A stretch of DNA of 39,194 nucleotides from an uncultured Caryophanales bacterium. GTDB taxonomy: Bacteria; Bacillota_I; Bacilli_A; RFN20; CAG-826. The DNA is taken from NCBI GenBank assembly GCA_947164155.1, contig CAMUVS010000007.1:1-39194 (forward strand). Direction: 5' to 3'. Under the pieces are notes generated by a model that was not told the DNA's origin, did no database searches, and was given only the letters and a program-made list of their open reading frames with translations. The position numbers and the translations under genes are program-made. Every line of letters begins with the position of its first letter. Position 1 is the first letter of the stretch. Shown here piece by piece: positions 31,682 through 39,194 of this stretch.

Positions 31682-31743
31682 TTACTGTATACAGTAATTA
31701 GCACTCTACTGAACAGACTGCTTGCCTCTCTCTCTCTCTCTCT
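31682..31743 (+). promoter_or_regulatory. Composite element copy 1: palindrome, degenerate CIRCE, (CT)9
   Basis: A perfect 16-base palindrome, TTACTGTATACAGTAA (31682-31697), directly abuts TTAGCACTC-N9-GACTGCTTG (31698-31724). This resembles the HrcA operator CIRCE (TTAGCACTC-N9-GAGTGCTAA): left arm 9/9, right arm 6/9, exact spacing. A (CT)9 tract follows (31726-31743). The layout matches the second element at 38755. Confidence 0.65.
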
Positions 31744-31822
31744 AAAATATTAGTGAAAATATTTAATAAAATTTTATTTTCTTAACGTCATGTATTTTAA
31801 ATACTTTCTGGAGACAGTTATT

Positions 31823-31873: not shown

Positions 31874-32869
31874 ATGGACAAGCAATCCTTATTAAATAAT
31901 CTTTATGTGGCAAAAGCCTTATATAGTTGTTACCAAACAAATTTACAAACAGCTTACAATTTAAAAAATGATTATAAAAATGAAAGTAATCAATATCAAC
32001 AAAGATTAGATAACGAATCTAAAACTCAAAGAGAGGCTATTTTAATTACGCAGGATAAACACGTTGGCCTTCTGCTTAAGATTTTTGGGTTCTCTGCCTT
32101 GGCGTGGGGGATTTTACAGGGGATAGGTTCTTGCATTAAATCAGAATCTAATCCGACCAAATCATCCGAAGTGTTAATTAATAACCTTGTTTTTGGAATA
32201 GTTATGGGCATTTTAGTTGGTGGCGGTTTGATCGCAATACTTATTGATTTAATCGTTTGCAAAGCATTAAACGCAAAATATAAAAAAGAATATGAAAAAA
32301 ATAAAAAAATTGTAGCAGCAGCTAATCAAAAGAGATTAGTTGAATATAGACGCGTTTCTGAAAAGAAAAAAGCTGATTTAGTTTTATTAAACAATCGTTT
32401 AAAAAGATTTGAATCACAGAGCAACTCGGCATTAACGGCGTTTAATAAATTTTTATCGACTAATTTTTTGTACAAAGATTATCAATCTATTATTCCTATT
32501 TGCCAATTTATTAAATATCTTGAAAGCGGCATTTGTTCTCAATTGGAAGGCCCATTTGGTTGCTATAGCAAGTATGAAGAAGAACTTAGACAAAATTTAA
32601 TAATTAATAAATTAGATGTCATATACGATAGTTTGCAAAGGATCGAAAGTAACCAACAAGTTATGGTTAGGACATTAAAATCTATTGATGCAAATACAAG
32701 AAGCATCTATAGCGTTGCATGCGATTTAAACGATAAAGTTGGTGATATTGCAGAAAATGTTAAAGCTATAAAAGTTTGCGAGAAAATTAACGCCGTAACT
32801 GGAATCATTACCGCCTACAACACATCTGCGATTTTGTCTCAAATGACTTATTACAACACACATAATTAA
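31874..32869 (+). CDS. Two-helix membrane protein with coiled coils, unknown function
   Basis: I do not recognise a named family. The 331-residue protein has a helical, Gln/Asn-rich N-terminus (1-62), two membrane segments (about 67-86, LLKIFGFSALAWGILQGIGS; about 107-131, LVFGIVMGILVGGGLIAILI and on), then long charged coiled-coil regions (about 132-185 and 240-315). The C-terminal part has regular heptad-like spacing (LDVIYDSLQRIESNQQVMVR). No signal peptide is evident, so both termini could face the cytoplasm. GAGGGG precedes the ATG. It lies downstream of the CIRCE-like element (about 130 bp), which suggests stress control. Its neighbours are surface lipoproteins. Confidence 0.75.
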   Translation: MDKQSLLNNLYVAKALYSCYQTNLQTAYNLKNDYKNESNQYQQRLDNESKTQREAILITQDKHVGLLLKIFGFSALAWGILQGIGSCIKSESNPTKSSEVLINNLVFGIVMGILVGGGLIAILIDLIVCKALNAKYKKEYEKNKKIVAAANQKRLVEYRRVSEKKKADLVLLNNRLKRFESQSNSALTAFNKFLSTNFLYKDYQSIIPICQFIKYLESGICSQLEGPFGCYSKYEEELRQNLIINKLDVIYDSLQRIESNQQVMVRTLKSIDANTRSIYSVACDLNDKVGDIAENVKAIKVCEKINAVTGIITAYNTSAILSQMTYYNTHN

Positions 32870-32905
32870 AGGAACGCGTGGAATTAATTAGAAGTCTTTA
32901 CGTAA

Positions 32906-32935
32906 TTGTTGAGTAAATAATTAGTTTTCTATAAA
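32906..32935 (+). promoter_or_regulatory. Candidate promoter of the GLUG lipoprotein gene
   Basis: TTGTTG (32906-32911), an 18-base spacer and TATAAA (32930-32935) lie upstream of AAAGGAGGAAG (32945-32955) and the ATG at 32962. Confidence 0.55.
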
Positions 32936-32961
32936 GAATGAACAACAAAGGAGGAAGAAAT

Positions 32962-34761
32962 ATGCGCTGTTGGAAAATTCTTATGTTATCTATTTCATTA
33001 TCATTAATCGGGTGTGGAACATCTCCGCAAGATGATGATAGTTTAATAAAGATTAATTCGCTTGAAGAATTCAAAGATCGTATTTTAAATCGCACCAACA
33101 AAACAATTGAAGGGTGTGAGTTGACTGTGGATTTGGATTTTGGCGGGGCAGTTCTCAATCCTAATGGTGTTGAAAAGAGATTCATTTTTGACGGCAAAAA
33201 TCACACAATAAGCAATTTTAAAATTCTCGGTTCGGCAAATGCAGGGTTGTTTGGGAAAGCCTACAATTCTACTATAAAGAATATTGTGTTTGATAATGCA
33301 CAAGTAACTGGAATCTCTCCAGGAGTTCTCGCTTCTACAGTTTCAAATTCTACTATTGAAAATATTGTTGTCAGATCAAATTGCAAAATAGGGGATGGTT
33401 CTGAAGCTTTTTCTGGCGGAGTAATTGGATATGCTTCAAACGACTCTAAAATATCAAAATGCATAAATTATGCGGAAGTTAAAGGCGGCAATTCTACCGG
33501 AGGAATTGTTGGAAAACTATATAATTCTGGTATTAATGATTCTGAAAATTATGGCAATATCACAGGATATGGAGATCGAAATGTCGGCGGAATAACTGGT
33601 TTTATAGAACAAAAATGGGATTCATATGGAGATTCTCATCCAGTTAAACAAACTAACAACAAGAATTATGGAACTATAAACGGAAGAGAAGCTAATAGAG
33701 TTGGTGGCATCATTGGTGGCTATACTAGGTCTGATGCAACTTATACCTCATATTCTCAAGTATGTTCATTCACTAGTAATGAAAACTTTGGAGCAGTTAA
33801 AGGAATTGATAATGTTGGTGGCATTATTGGTGGTTGTGCAGATTCTGAAAGTGCCGAAATTAGAGTTACATATTGCAATAACACAGGAACCGTAACTGGC
33901 AGTGAGAATGTTGGCGGAATAGTTGGTGCCAATGTTAAAAACATGTCAATATCGCAATCCAAGAATTTATATAATAACGATAGATCTAATTATGTTTCTG
34001 GTTATTATAACGTTGGTGGCATTTGCGGTGTTGGACACCATTTTGAATTTTGTGAAAATGCCGGACTAGTCAAATTAGAAAAGAAAGCAAATGCTGAAGA
34101 TAAAGATAGTTACACTCATCATAAAGGGCAATACGGAATTGGTGGCATTTGTGGCAATAATTTTGCAAACGAAGTACCAAATATTAAAAATTGCATTAAT
34201 AGCGGAGATGTTTGTGGATATTCAGTTGATGAACAAATGTATTGTGAAGGCACTTCAGTTGGTGGGTTAGTAGGCATCCTTTGTGGTGGCAATGTCCAAT
34301 ATTCCGAAAATACAGGATCGGTTAATGGAAGTTCTTGCGTTGGCGGAATTATTGGAGCGTTAGTTCCATCTAATGAAGCAAAGATTACTAACAACTCGTT
34401 TACCGGTTCAATTACTGGGGCTAATTATTCAAGTGGCGGTTTGATTGGATATATTTATGCTTATAATTTAGAACACTCTAAAAAAGTTACAATTTCTGAA
34501 TGTTTGGTTGATAGTAATCGAATATATGGATATGGCCAAAGAATTAGTGGCTTAATTGGTTCATCCTATATTAGCACTGAAGATTCTTCTTATTATGGTA
34601 TTTCAAAAATTTTTGAATGCACAATTAATGGAACAATTCATGCAATTACTGGTCAAGGAGCGGAAATACTAGGCAGCAATCCTGTATCTCCAAGTGGAAT
34701 TAAATACATAGATATTCTCGAAGATACTCTTACTGTAGATATCGCTGTAGTTAAAGAATAA
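32962..34761 (+). CDS. GLUG-repeat surface lipoprotein
   Basis: The 599-residue protein starts with a lipoprotein signal (MRCWKILMLSISLSLIGC, lipobox SLIG-C). The start at 32962 is taken because AAAGGAGG lies just before it; an ATG at 32938 lies before that site. From about residue 90 the protein is a series of about 12 units ending in GG(I/V/L)(V/I)G motifs, such as GGIVGK, GGITGF, GGIIGG, GGICGV and GGLIGY, spaced by 30-50 residues. These are GLUG-type repeats expected to fold as a right-handed beta-helix or similar solenoid on the cell surface. The ligand is unknown; adhesion is inferred from the family type. Confidence 0.85.
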   Translation: MRCWKILMLSISLSLIGCGTSPQDDDSLIKINSLEEFKDRILNRTNKTIEGCELTVDLDFGGAVLNPNGVEKRFIFDGKNHTISNFKILGSANAGLFGKAYNSTIKNIVFDNAQVTGISPGVLASTVSNSTIENIVVRSNCKIGDGSEAFSGGVIGYASNDSKISKCINYAEVKGGNSTGGIVGKLYNSGINDSENYGNITGYGDRNVGGITGFIEQKWDSYGDSHPVKQTNNKNYGTINGREANRVGGIIGGYTRSDATYTSYSQVCSFTSNENFGAVKGIDNVGGIIGGCADSESAEIRVTYCNNTGTVTGSENVGGIVGANVKNMSISQSKNLYNNDRSNYVSGYYNVGGICGVGHHFEFCENAGLVKLEKKANAEDKDSYTHHKGQYGIGGICGNNFANEVPNIKNCINSGDVCGYSVDEQMYCEGTSVGGLVGILCGGNVQYSENTGSVNGSSCVGGIIGALVPSNEAKITNNSFTGSITGANYSSGGLIGYIYAYNLEHSKKVTISECLVDSNRIYGYGQRISGLIGSSYISTEDSSYYGISKIFECTINGTIHAITGQGAEILGSNPVSPSGIKYIDILEDTLTVDIAVVKE

Positions 34762-34810
34762 TGGTATTTATGAAAGAATAATACTCAAAAAAGATTGAGG
34801 GCAAATTGTT

Positions 34811-37507
34811 ATGAGAAAATTTTTGATAATAAATGTTTTAATGATATCAGTGTTATTAACTGGTTGTAATTTTAATATCAACCAAACTAGCGATCACACA
34901 CCTACTGAACACGTTCATACTCCAGGAACCCCTGTCGAAGAAAATAAAATAGAACCGACATGCGTTGAAAATGGTTCTTATGATTTGGTCACTTATTGTG
35001 TTGATGATGGTGTCGAAATGCATAGAGAGACAATTATTATTCCCGCAACTGGACATGATTTAATTCATCACGATGGTCAAGCCGCTACATGTACTGAAGA
35101 TGGTTGGTTAGAATATGATACATGTTCAAAATGTGATTATTCGACATTTCAAAGTATTCCTGCAACCAATCATCCAAATCAAGAAGTTAGAGAAGAAAAT
35201 AGAATAGAAGCTACTTGTACAGAAGATGGTTCCTATGACTTAGTTACTTATTGTCTTGATGAGAATATAGTGCTTTCTTCTGAACATATTGTTTTAAAAG
35301 CAACTGGACATGATTTAATTCATCACGATGGTAAAGAGCCATGCGTAGGAGAAGATGGTTTTAATGAATATGACACCTGTTCTAAGTGTGATTATTCTAC
35401 TTTTGAACTTCGACATAATTTATGCGAACCTGTTTATCAATGGAACGATGACTATTCTGAATGTAAGGCAGTTTTATCCTGCTCCAACTGTGACTATATT
35501 CTGTATGAAACTAGTTATTGTTCTTGCGCCACAATTTCTAGAGCGTATAGCGATTCAAATAAAATATATGTGTATAAAGTTTATAATGCTAACTTTTCTA
35601 ATAACAATTTAGTTTCTCAAAGTTACGAAGTTTTAGTTGAAGAGTTAGATGGACTAGATAATTTATCTTTTCGAAAAGATGAAGCTACCAATCGATGTGC
35701 TGTGAAAGCTGCTAATCGCACAATTGAATCGGCATACATACCTACATATTTTGATGACATTCCAGTCACTCATATTATGGTAGATGCTTTTTATAATTGC
35801 TCATCTCTAACATCGGTAACTATCCCAAATAGCGTTGTTTATATTGGCAGAAATGCTTTTTATAAGTGCTCATCTCTAACATCGGTAACTATCCCAAATA
35901 GCGTTAACCAAATTCCTGAAAATCCTTTTTATGGATGTACTTCTTTAAGTGAAATTGTCGTAGATAAAGAAAATCCATATTTTACTTTCGATAACGGAGT
36001 TTTATTCAATAAAAACCTAACTACTTTAATATCTTTTTTAGCTTTTCAACAAAGTTCTTATAATATTCCAAATACTGTAACTACGATTGTTGATAAAGCA
36101 TTTTCACATTGTACGAACTTAACCTCAATAACATTTCCTGATAGCTTAATTACAATTGAAAATTCTGCATTTTCCAATTGTTCTTCTCTCCAATCTATTG
36201 TTCTTCCAGATAGTGTTGAGACTATCGGAGCAAATGCATTTTTTTACTGCACATCTGTTAGCTATCTAAAACTTGGCTGTAATGTTAAAAAAATAGGATC
36301 GGCAGCGTTTCGATATTGTAATATCAACACAGTAGTGATTCCGGCTTCAGCAGAAGCAGTTGCTTATGATGCGTTTTACAATGAATCCAATGAAATTGAA
36401 GTATATTTTGTAGTTAAATCGTTTAAGGATTTCGTTAGCATCGAAAGATATGAAGCTCGACTCGCTACCTTTTTTGTTCATCTTATTGACGAAAGAGGAA
36501 AAGAAATAAAAGAAGTTGTAATACCTGAAGGAGTTGAAGTAATAGAGGATGGAAGCTTTTATGGTTGCACATCAATTACTTCTATAACGATTCCTAATGG
36601 TGTTTCTGAAATTGGCATGTATGCATTTGAATCATGTTCTTCCTTAACTTCAATAATACTTCCAGATAGTTTGACAACAATTTATGGTTCTGCATTTAAA
36701 TCTTGCACTTCCTTGTCATCGATAGTGCTGCCAAATAGTTTGACAACAATTTATAGTTCTCTTTTTGAAAATTGTTCGTCTTTAACGTCTATAATAATTC
36801 CAGATAGTGTTGAAACAATTCTTTCAGAACCTTTTAAAGGATGTTCTTCTCTAAAATATATCTATCTTGGAAAAGGGGTAAAATCATTTAGTAATAGTCC
36901 AAACATTCATCCAAATCCTTTTGTATATTGTGATAATTTGGAGACCATTGAAGTTAGCCCAGACAATCCTTATTTTTCTTCAACTAATGGAGTCCTGTTT
37001 AACAAAGAAGAAACTATAATTTATAGATGCCCAAGTAAAAATAATTTATCTAGTATTTCAATTCCAAGCACAGTCAAAACAATTTATAACGATGCGTTTT
37101 TAGATTGTATTAATATTAAATCGGTTCTTATACCATATGGCGTTACTCTAATATATGGAGATGCGTTTTACGGGTGTACTTCGTTAACCAGTATTTCTAT
37201 TCCAAATTCGGTTACCGAATTGTACTCAGGAGCTTTTAACAATTGCAGTTCCTTAACCAGTATTAATTTTGGAAGCGGTATTACTGGATTGGCATCATAT
37301 CTAGTTAGAGGTTGCACGTCACTTAAGTCTATATATTTACCTAAAACAATAGTTAATATATCATCATTCGCTTTAAAGGAATGTGGCTGCAATTATCTTT
37401 CTTATGGTGGAACTATTTCGGAATGGAAAAAAGTTAGCAAAGGATACGATTGGCATCCAGCAGCAGTTAAAGTTGTTCATTGTACGAATGGTGACACAAC
37501 ACTTTAA
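34811..37507 (+). CDS. BspA-like leucine-rich-repeat surface lipoprotein
   Basis: The 898-residue protein has a lipoprotein signal, MRKFLIINVLMISVLLTGC. Residues about 30-240 hold Cys-rich tandem units (CVENGSYDLVTYC, ATGHDLIHHDG, EYDTCSKCDYSTF) like those in Firmicutes surface proteins. From about residue 310 to the end it is a BspA/LRR_5 array of roughly 23-residue units: AF--C-SLTSITIP-SV--I. Such proteins commonly bind host or matrix proteins; binding partners here are unknown. GAGGG lies 9 bases before the ATG. The array contains an exact 39-bp repeat (35798-35836 and 35867-35905), one LRR unit apart, suggesting recent duplication. Confidence 0.88.
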   Translation: MRKFLIINVLMISVLLTGCNFNINQTSDHTPTEHVHTPGTPVEENKIEPTCVENGSYDLVTYCVDDGVEMHRETIIIPATGHDLIHHDGQAATCTEDGWLEYDTCSKCDYSTFQSIPATNHPNQEVREENRIEATCTEDGSYDLVTYCLDENIVLSSEHIVLKATGHDLIHHDGKEPCVGEDGFNEYDTCSKCDYSTFELRHNLCEPVYQWNDDYSECKAVLSCSNCDYILYETSYCSCATISRAYSDSNKIYVYKVYNANFSNNNLVSQSYEVLVEELDGLDNLSFRKDEATNRCAVKAANRTIESAYIPTYFDDIPVTHIMVDAFYNCSSLTSVTIPNSVVYIGRNAFYKCSSLTSVTIPNSVNQIPENPFYGCTSLSEIVVDKENPYFTFDNGVLFNKNLTTLISFLAFQQSSYNIPNTVTTIVDKAFSHCTNLTSITFPDSLITIENSAFSNCSSLQSIVLPDSVETIGANAFFYCTSVSYLKLGCNVKKIGSAAFRYCNINTVVIPASAEAVAYDAFYNESNEIEVYFVVKSFKDFVSIERYEARLATFFVHLIDERGKEIKEVVIPEGVEVIEDGSFYGCTSITSITIPNGVSEIGMYAFESCSSLTSIILPDSLTTIYGSAFKSCTSLSSIVLPNSLTTIYSSLFENCSSLTSIIIPDSVETILSEPFKGCSSLKYIYLGKGVKSFSNSPNIHPNPFVYCDNLETIEVSPDNPYFSSTNGVLFNKEETIIYRCPSKNNLSSISIPSTVKTIYNDAFLDCINIKSVLIPYGVTLIYGDAFYGCTSLTSISIPNSVTELYSGAFNNCSSLTSINFGSGITGLASYLVRGCTSLKSIYLPKTIVNISSFALKECGCNYLSYGGTISEWKKVSKGYDWHPAAVKVVHCTNGDTTL
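35798..35905 (+). repeat. Exact 39-bp tandem repeat in the LRR region
   Basis: The 39-base sequence beginning TGCTCATCTCTAACATCGG recurs unchanged at 35798-35836 and 35867-35905, offset by 69 bases, which is one 23-residue LRR unit. Synonymous positions are also identical, unlike most other units, so this is a young duplication or gene-conversion product. Confidence 0.95.
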
Positions 37508-37765: not shown

Positions 37766-38569
37766 TTATTTCCTTTTCCAAATATAACCACCAGCAGTTT
37801 TTTGTCTATTCCTTATGCAATTATTAATATTAGGAATACTAATTTTGGTCTCTTTAGAAGCTTCTTTAACCGAACGGTATTTTTTAACAATTTTTTCGTT
37901 TAAATCAAGTTGATAAATCATCGGTTTTTTCGGTCTAGAAACATTCTCAAAATCCTTGTATTTCCAGATGTATCCAAAAGCGGTGGAATACTTTCCAGAA
38001 AGGCATTGTTGAATGCCTTGATTTCTCGGAGATTTTCCGAGTTCTATTAATGCCTGATTAATCGATTTATATGTTTTAACATATTTCTTATCTAATGTAT
38101 ATTGAATAATCGCGCGTTTTTCTATTATTCTTTTCACACCTTTTTGATAACCGAATTTTTCGATTTCTTCATCGCTTAATTCGCGGAATTTTTCTTTTCC
38201 TTCATAACGATATTTTCTGTTAATTCGGTCTCGTAAAGTATGAGGTTCAATATTGTTTAATTTCGCAGCTTTTTTCACTGATGGATAAGTCTCGATAATT
38301 TCTCCTGTTTCATCAATTTTTGCGATTGGGCGAATTGTTGATTTTTCGTTGCTTATTACAAGTGGTGGAATGTTGTCTGGAACTTCATCAACATTAAATC
38401 TTTTCCATTGAAGACCTTTAACTGTTGCAATATCCCCTCTAATACATCGATCAATGGTACGAGGAAAAAGATTTCTACACCGACTTGCTCTTTTGGCAGA
38501 CGGGTAGATTTTCACTAACTTTCCCTCAAGGGTATAACATGCGACAACAGTGTTTTTTGTTCGTGACAT
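37766..38569 (-). CDS. Protein of four NUMOD1/IENR1-like repeats, no nuclease domain
   Basis: The 267-residue protein consists of four related units of about 50-60 residues: about 8-58 (VVACYTLEGKLVKIYPSAKR), 78-130 (RPIAKIDETGEIIETYPSVK), 148-201 (AIIQYTLDKKYVKTYKSINQ) and 213-266 (MIYQLDLNEKIVKKYRSVKE). The last two end GYIWK. This is the pattern of NUMOD1/IENR1 repeats, small helix-turn-helix-like DNA-binding modules found in homing endonucleases. No HNH or GIY-YIG catalytic motif is seen. It could be a DNA-binding regulator or the remnant of a homing enzyme. It is Lys/Arg-rich. The ATG lies eight bases after a -10 box without a Shine-Dalgarno sequence. It is flanked by inverted repeats. 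Confidence 0.82.
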   Translation of the reverse strand: MSRTKNTVVACYTLEGKLVKIYPSAKRASRCRNLFPRTIDRCIRGDIATVKGLQWKRFNVDEVPDNIPPLVISNEKSTIRPIAKIDETGEIIETYPSVKKAAKLNNIEPHTLRDRINRKYRYEGKEKFRELSDEEIEKFGYQKGVKRIIEKRAIIQYTLDKKYVKTYKSINQALIELGKSPRNQGIQQCLSGKYSTAFGYIWKYKDFENVSRPKKPMIYQLDLNEKIVKKYRSVKEASKETKISIPNINNCIRNRQKTAGGYIWKRK

Positions 38570-38754: not shown

Positions 38755-38816
38755 TTACTACTATGTAGTAATTAGCACTCAAAAGTAATGAGTGCTTGCT
38801 TCTTCTTCTTCTTCTT
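38755..38816 (+). promoter_or_regulatory. Composite element copy 2: palindrome, CIRCE, (CTT)6
   Basis: A perfect inverted repeat, TTACTAC-TAT-GTAGTAA (38755-38771), directly abuts TTAGCACTC-N9-GAGTGCTTG (38772-38798), which matches CIRCE at 9/9 left and 7/9 right positions with the exact 9-base spacer. A (CTT)6 tract follows (38799-38816). CIRCE is the binding site of the heat-shock repressor HrcA. The first supported gene downstream starts at 39169. Confidence 0.8.
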
Positions 38817-39168
38817 TATAGAATATAAAGCAAGAGATGGAAACAAAGTTGAAATAGACGCTCCTGGTCAAAGCGTCTTAATTCAAATTCATCCCTCTCT
38901 GTTTGCTTCAAAAGAGAATTTAGAACAAAAGTGCACATTGCTCTCCTTTCTCGAAATGAGCAAACGTCACAGAACCATCCTATTGCCATTTAGGGCTTAT
39001 TTGATAGCGGTGGGGCGTGACAAAACAACATAGTTAGTCTTTAACTCGAGTGGATTTTTAGGAAACTCGAAGACTTATTGATTAACTTCATTCATGTTGT
39101 TCATATACCTCATGGTTGTAAATTATCGAAAACTCAGCCGGAGGAAGAAATGAAAGGAGAAAATTTAT

Positions 39169-39194
39169 ATGAACAAATTATTTACAAAGATTGC
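39169..39194 (+). CDS. Start of a probable exported protein (partial)
   Basis: Only MNKLFTKI and two bases of the next codon are visible before the window ends. AAAGGAGA (39153-39160) is well placed for this ATG. The opening, positive residues then hydrophobic ones, is typical of signal peptides of exported proteins in this kind of bacterium. A competing ATG at 39150 in another frame, with GGAGG five bases upstream, would read MKGENLYEQIIYKDC to the window end; which is used cannot be decided here. Confidence 0.5.

Follow-up and report, generated by a model that had tools for sequence, protein, structure and literature searches.

A putative HrcA-gated promoter module with a microsatellite spacer before surface-protein genes of uncultured gut Bacilli

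Introduction

Why should an operator of the heat-shock type stand before a gene that begins like that of an exported protein? The question is raised by the right end of a 39,194-nucleotide stretch of DNA from an uncultured Caryophanales bacterium (GenBank contig CAMUVS010000007.1), which as a whole is called the window below. CIRCE is generally treated as an operator of chaperone operons, and repeat-based phase variation as an unregulated lottery. The original prediction for this locus proposed a near-CIRCE operator with the exact nine-nucleotide spacer (N9), no chaperone gene nearby and a gene at 39169 that starts like one for an exported protein, and suggested that stress controls surface proteins in this organism. 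We put the probability at roughly two in three that the feature is a phase-variable surface-protein promoter module gated by HrcA.

The site at the right end of the window

The site, here site B, and its surroundings comprise the following features.

37766..38569, minus strand: NUMOD1-domain protein, divergent neighbour of site B, probably outside the element
38755..38771, no strand: inverted repeat TTACTAC-TAT-GTAGTAA, abutting the operator directly
38772..38798, plus strand: CIRCE-like operator TTAGCACTC-N9-GAGTGCTTG, from pattern search and family-wide conservation
38796..38801, plus strand: -35 hexamer TTGCTT, overlapping the right arm of the operator, 17 bp from the -10 hexamer
38800..38814, plus strand: (TTC)5 microsatellite, within the -35/-10 spacer
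38819..38824, plus strand: -10 hexamer TAGAAT, of a form conserved across sites
38825..39168, plus strand: leader of about 344 nt, common to MNKLF-type genes, with a covarying TGGTCA hairpin (alignment A1 and stems)
39169..39194, plus strand: start of the exported-protein gene MNKLFTKI..., truncated by the contig end, with an ortholog in genome G046 and a paralog on contig C19

The interval 38755–38816 thus has three parts, the inverted repeat (38755–38771), the operator (38772–38798) and the (TTC)5 tract (38800–38814), and the overlap with the -35 box places the site in a promoter region. The operator reads TTAGCACTC-AAAAGTAAT-GAGTGCTTG with a spacer of exactly N9, and 16 of its 18 arm positions agree with TTAGCACTC-N9-GAGTGCTAA; the two mismatches both lie at the end of the right arm, where AA has become TG, a change that is systematic over the 92 sites described below. 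A search of the window at up to three mismatches to CIRCE returned two sites, 38772–38798 and 31698–31724, a number reached in none of 100 dinucleotide shuffles.

No chaperone gene lies near site B between the NUMOD1-domain gene on its left and the contig end at 39194, which cuts the gene at 39169. The ortholog of that gene in G046 continues as MNKLFTKIAGLSLGLAMAIGVGVAVGSKEAV..., an exported protein, within flanks that are 96–97% identical. The original prediction was largely right about the operator, and its reading of the neighbourhood and of the truncated gene is confirmed by the NUMOD1-domain protein to the left and the exported MNKLF ortholog to the right. Since exported proteins lie downstream, where control of chaperones is typical of CIRCE and yet not part of the operator's definition, we call the site CIRCE-like and not CIRCE.

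Other copies and the ordinary CIRCEs of the genome

The second match in the window, site A, is built in the same way.

31682..31697, no strand: inverted repeat TTACTG-TATA-CAGTAA
31698..31724, plus strand: CIRCE-like operator, second copy in the window, 3 mismatches to CIRCE
31722..31748, plus strand: promoter, TTGCCT, 15-bp (TC)8 spacer, TAAAAT
31874..37507, plus strand: putative surface operon of three genes behind site A
31874..32869, plus strand: first gene of the operon, membrane coiled-coil protein
32938..34761, plus strand: second gene, GLUG lipoprotein
34811..37507, plus strand: third gene, BspA-type LRR lipoprotein (lipoboxes SLIGC and LLTGC of the operon's two lipoproteins were read from the sequence)

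Sites A and B align over 57 nt, each with an inverted repeat before the operator and a simple repeat after it, (TC)8 in A and (TTC)5 at 38800 in B. The intergenic stretch just upstream of site A (window 31697) has an 82% identical relative at locus L073 in genus g7, a likeness which suggests that cassette and flank travel together. Contig C19 carries a third copy. A divergent NUMOD1-type start flanks it on one side, and a gene for MNKLFSKIAGLSIGLAMAIGVGVAVGS... follows about 385 nt downstream; the position occupied in the window by the NUMOD1-domain gene at 37766–38569 is taken there by a truncated relative. A mobile-element reading of the 625-bp 3′ end of the window was rejected: only C19 fragments match it, no transposase was seen, and paralogous loci, each comprising a NUMOD1 start, promoter, leader and MNKLF gene, explain the match. 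In the same genome, the element is missing from the few hundred bases before further MNKLF-type or related genes (L017, L018 and L019).

This genome encodes HrcA once (C5:27134–27784, E 1.3e-39). Double CIRCEs, ending in TAA or CAA, precede its hrcA-grpE-dnaK-dnaJ operon and a clp ATPase gene (grpE, dnaK, dnaJ and clp being named from reading the translations), whereas the surface sites carry a single operator, and the promoters of the hrcA-grpE-dnaK-dnaJ and clp operons are free of a microsatellite. A double CIRCE likewise precedes hrcA in the other genomes inspected. Both types meet in G132 and G059, where a repeat-bearing site lies about 695 nt upstream of hrcA, before a 139-aa bPH_2 protein, while hrcA keeps its own double CIRCE.

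Recurrence across the family

Of the 196 family genomes searched, 45 carry window-type sites. These genomes fall in 13 of 35 genera, and most members of the window's own genus are among them; a reversed-pattern control matched in 5 of the 196 (6 matches), none of them in that genus. The family search yielded 92 distinct sites, a few of which (e.g., L020 and L024) probably match by chance or are unrelated. When a gap of 4–16 was allowed between the arms, N9 was nevertheless found in 38 of 40 sites. Operator positions 26–27, which are AA in chaperone CIRCEs, hold T in 90 and G in 89 of the 92 sites, in a measured conservation partly set by a search pattern that capped the operator at three mismatches. 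A stricter TTC form, sought in one genome each for 84,980 species, returned 20 stretches, all from metagenome-assembled Bacilli labelled Erysipelotrichaceae, Bacillales or Bacilli, with several sample names referring to rumen, reticulum or horse faeces.

As the first search required the operator, a repeat-only search was added against selection bias. Across 19 genomes of the genus, 23 of 24 (CTT)5 tracts and 12 of 13 R(CT)6.5 tracts stand directly after a CIRCE-like site, counts which include two degenerate sites (L206 and L208) and leave two exceptions that look like coding sequence. Sequences upstream of the tracts scored at least 11/16 against the CIRCE arms in 26 of 31 cases, as against 0.3 expected in shuffles; the five below this score include two AAG elements, which were read on the opposite strand, and one sequence next to a run of N. 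The degenerate operators before (TTC)n tracts lie at L206:1450–1525 (G170:C12) and at L208 (G067:C4).

HrcA is found far more widely: 186 of the 196 genomes encode it, nearly always once, and none of the 35 genera lacks it. Considering that hrcA is near-universal but the element is confined to 13 of 35 genera, their co-occurrence says little. One genome with the element, the 92%-complete G028, gave no hrcA hit, which may reflect an assembly gap.

A common promoter design with a variable spacer

The sites share a common design: an optional upstream inverted repeat, a CIRCE-like operator with a fixed N9, a TTG(A/C)YT -35 box fused to the right arm, a microsatellite spacer, and TATAAT or TAGAAT. 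In nearly all of them the right arm ends in TTG and runs on as TTGCTT or TTGACT, which is the -35 box; this fusion accounts for a right arm in TTG instead of TAA. With -10 boxes picked by a simple rule, the -35/-10 spacer could be called at 86 sites, most often at 17 bp (36 sites), followed by 14 (14), 15 (10), 20 (6), 19 (5), 23 (4) and 11 (3). Lengths follow the repeat unit and are periodic around 17, with TTC sites at 11, 14, 17, 20 or 23 bp and TC sites mostly at 15, 17 or 19 bp. The units vary (TTC, TC, AAG, TCC) and the position of the repeat is constant; this is more in keeping with a role as spacer than with a protein that recognises one particular repeat sequence. The AAG form of the module is seen at L039, L040, L061, L072, L097 and L109.

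Repeat number differs between close orthologs; one genome was taken per species, so these are differences between species. The window and G046, 96% identical in the upstream and 97% in the downstream flank, carry (TTC)5 and (TTC)3 with spacers of 17 and 11 bp, and otherwise differ by scattered substitutions and single-base indels. At L039, L040 and L061, with downstream flanks 93–98% identical, there are 7, 5 and 6 AAG units and spacers of 20, 14 and 17 bp; at L049, L089 and L100, with downstream flanks about 94% identical, there are 6, 5 and 7 TTC units and spacers of 17, 14 and 20 bp. Both marks of a repeat-spacer promoter are therefore present, a simple repeat between -35 and -10 and a repeat number that varies within near-constant flanks (about 93–98% downstream).

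Upstream of the operator, perfect arms of at least 6 bp form an inverted repeat in 53 of the 92 sites, compared with 2.8 expected in shuffles. Its arm sequences are many and its loop is mostly 3 nt, so that pairing is conserved and sequence is not. Our guess is that it acts through its structure in the DNA, either insulating the promoter or favouring slippage of the repeat.

Downstream genes and their leader

A simple rule for signal peptides marks 65 of the 83 downstream proteins as exported, compared with 10 of 191 in the background set. Among the downstream proteins are MNKLF-type proteins bearing Big_2 or Listeria-Bacteroides repeats, as well as collagen-like and LRR_5 lipoproteins; the exceptions include zinc-ribbon MYCPNCGKK proteins and, in two genomes, the bPH_2 membrane protein that adjoins hrcA.

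The leaders of MNKLF genes with the promoter are roughly 280–400 nt long in most cases, with extremes of 138 and 471. Alignment A1 of the leader (window 38825–39168) reveals conserved blocks, including ATCACGGTGCACATGACTCTT, and the covarying hairpin around TGGTCA. RNAalifold over the whole leader gave almost no structure, and a local check of this one hairpin was more informative. At gathering score, Rfam returned only rRNA, 5S and tRNA and none in the window's leader, the weak minus-strand snoRNA-like hits falling below threshold. The leader is a candidate new structured RNA, and possibly one with a regulatory function of its own.

Comparison with known systems

The HrcA/CIRCE system of class I heat shock, as at groESL and dnaK of B. 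subtilis and in lactic acid bacteria, shares with the module the left arm TTAGCACTC, the N9 spacer, the inner right arm GAGTGCT, the overlap with the -35 region and the single hrcA. The module departs from it in the right-arm TTG fused to the -35 box, the surface proteins downstream and the microsatellite after the operator. Phase-variable promoters with microsatellite spacers are known from the TA repeats of Haemophilus hifA/hifB and the poly-A tracts of Mycoplasma hyorhinis vlp. There, too, a simple repeat sits between -35 and -10, changes in unit number alter the spacer, and surface proteins lie downstream; the present family, in contrast, uses TTC, TC and AAG units, couples them to a heat-shock-type operator and extends over many genera of uncultured commensals.

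The trinucleotide repeat of Mycoplasma gallisepticum vlhA, (GAA)n, which is TTC on the other strand, also belongs to surface-lipoprotein promoters with conserved flanks (PMC6258824). It sits some 40 nt before the point where transcription starts, in flanks without a palindrome and with no CIRCE described (PMC6258824), whereas in the module the repeat is itself the -35/-10 spacer, a CIRCE-like palindrome flanks it, and AAG is also used; the vlhA arrangement, a repeat upstream of the promoter with vlhA flanks, is not what is found here. In L. plantarum, the available text of one study reports effects of HrcA on cell-envelope genes, without CIRCE-repeat fusions (PMC3842655). We found no description of a CIRCE-type operator fused to a repeat spacer in our search of open-access papers, which omit most subscription journals.

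A proposed mechanism and its alternatives

RNA polymerase would use TTGCTT at 38796 together with TAGAAT at 38819. Slipped-strand mispairing in replication would add or remove TTC units and thereby move the spacer in 3-bp steps around an optimum of 17 bp, the length for the ON state being taken from general promoter knowledge, so that the promoter would be switched at random or tuned, that is, vary in phase. The protein on the CIRCE-like operator would be HrcA, for which GroEL would serve as folding sensor; it would block the -35 region as long as the cell is unstressed, and folding stress would release it. Over a set of surface genes, the repeats would decide which promoters are competent and HrcA would decide when the competent ones fire. 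Three steps of this scheme are inferred: that the operator is bound by HrcA, that HrcA represses there, and that phase switches among the cells of a population.

It is unlikely, to our minds, that these are phase-variable surface promoters whose operator is read by a different regulator, evolved to a similar palindrome, with chaperone stress not involved. Such a regulator would suit the right arm, which is TTG and not TAA in nearly all sites, the many genera (most of those with hrcA) that lack the element, and G028, where the element occurs with no hrcA hit; we also count against the HrcA model that a ChIP-derived HrcA consensus from elsewhere includes TGCTAA, compared with the right-arm end TG here (PMC4989314). 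Nevertheless, the left arm, the N9 spacing and the inner right arm agree with CIRCE, the change to TG is explained by the overlap with the -35 box, and nearly all genomes that have the element also encode HrcA. The operator could also be a relic, or a chance likeness carried along by a duplicating promoter cassette in which the repeat promoter alone matters. The cassette has clearly been duplicated and has spread among paralogs, and the arms have decayed in some copies (L206 and L208), but we consider a relic improbable, given that sequence and spacing are kept across unrelated coding sequences and across the TTC, TC and AAG types, even as the 9-bp spacer and the flanking sequence change.

Two further readings have been rejected. 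That the inverted repeat and AGCACTC/GAGTGCT are a pair of RNA or DNA hairpins, acting as a terminator or recombination site, is favoured by a terminator-like call at 38774 and by the conserved pairing of the upstream inverted repeat. In the CIRCE-like part, however, changes at arm positions 7/21 and 9/19 hardly ever have a compensating partner over the 92 sites, which indicates that the operator is conserved as sequence, like a protein site, and not as a hairpin; its loop is fixed at 9, and it lies upstream of the -10 box, so that it would fall outside the transcript of this promoter. A hairpin pair is accordingly very improbable. An ordinary chaperone CIRCE, with its chaperone gene hidden past the contig end that cuts the gene at 39169, has next to no chance of being correct, because the G046 ortholog and the C19 paralog both have an exported MNKLF protein in that place.

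Taken over the family, the module and its regulon are well supported by sequence comparison, and a stress-linked surface regulon is plausible, as the same CIRCE-like operator precedes surface genes across 13 genera. The stress-controlled surface proteins of the original prediction thus hold up in part: they gain from the true CIRCEs at the hrcA and clp operons and from this recurrence, found on scanning related genomes for the operator before exported-protein genes as had been proposed, and the two contrary findings among those it had named that sequence could show, a genome without hrcA and a chaperone gene downstream, did not occur, there being a single hrcA and an exported MNKLF ortholog. 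What it missed were the consistent TTG of the right arm with its fusion to the -35 box, the repeat, the promoter, the inverted repeat, the second copy in the window and the regulon. For the broadest version, that HrcA would be the master gate of a contingency-locus surface proteome in uncultured gut Bacilli, with spacers arming and disarming promoters at random and folding stress firing the armed ones, we see the odds as about even.

Significance for uncultured gut Bacilli

A CIRCE-like operator and the repeat-based design of phase variation are fused here in one promoter, and the combination recurs many times within and across the genomes of rumen and hindgut bacteria. If the proposed mechanism is true, folding stress would directly alter the cell surface, and repeat slippage would diversify the surfaces available. 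The module also offers a sequence signature by which surface-variable loci may be predicted in organisms known only as metagenome-assembled genomes.
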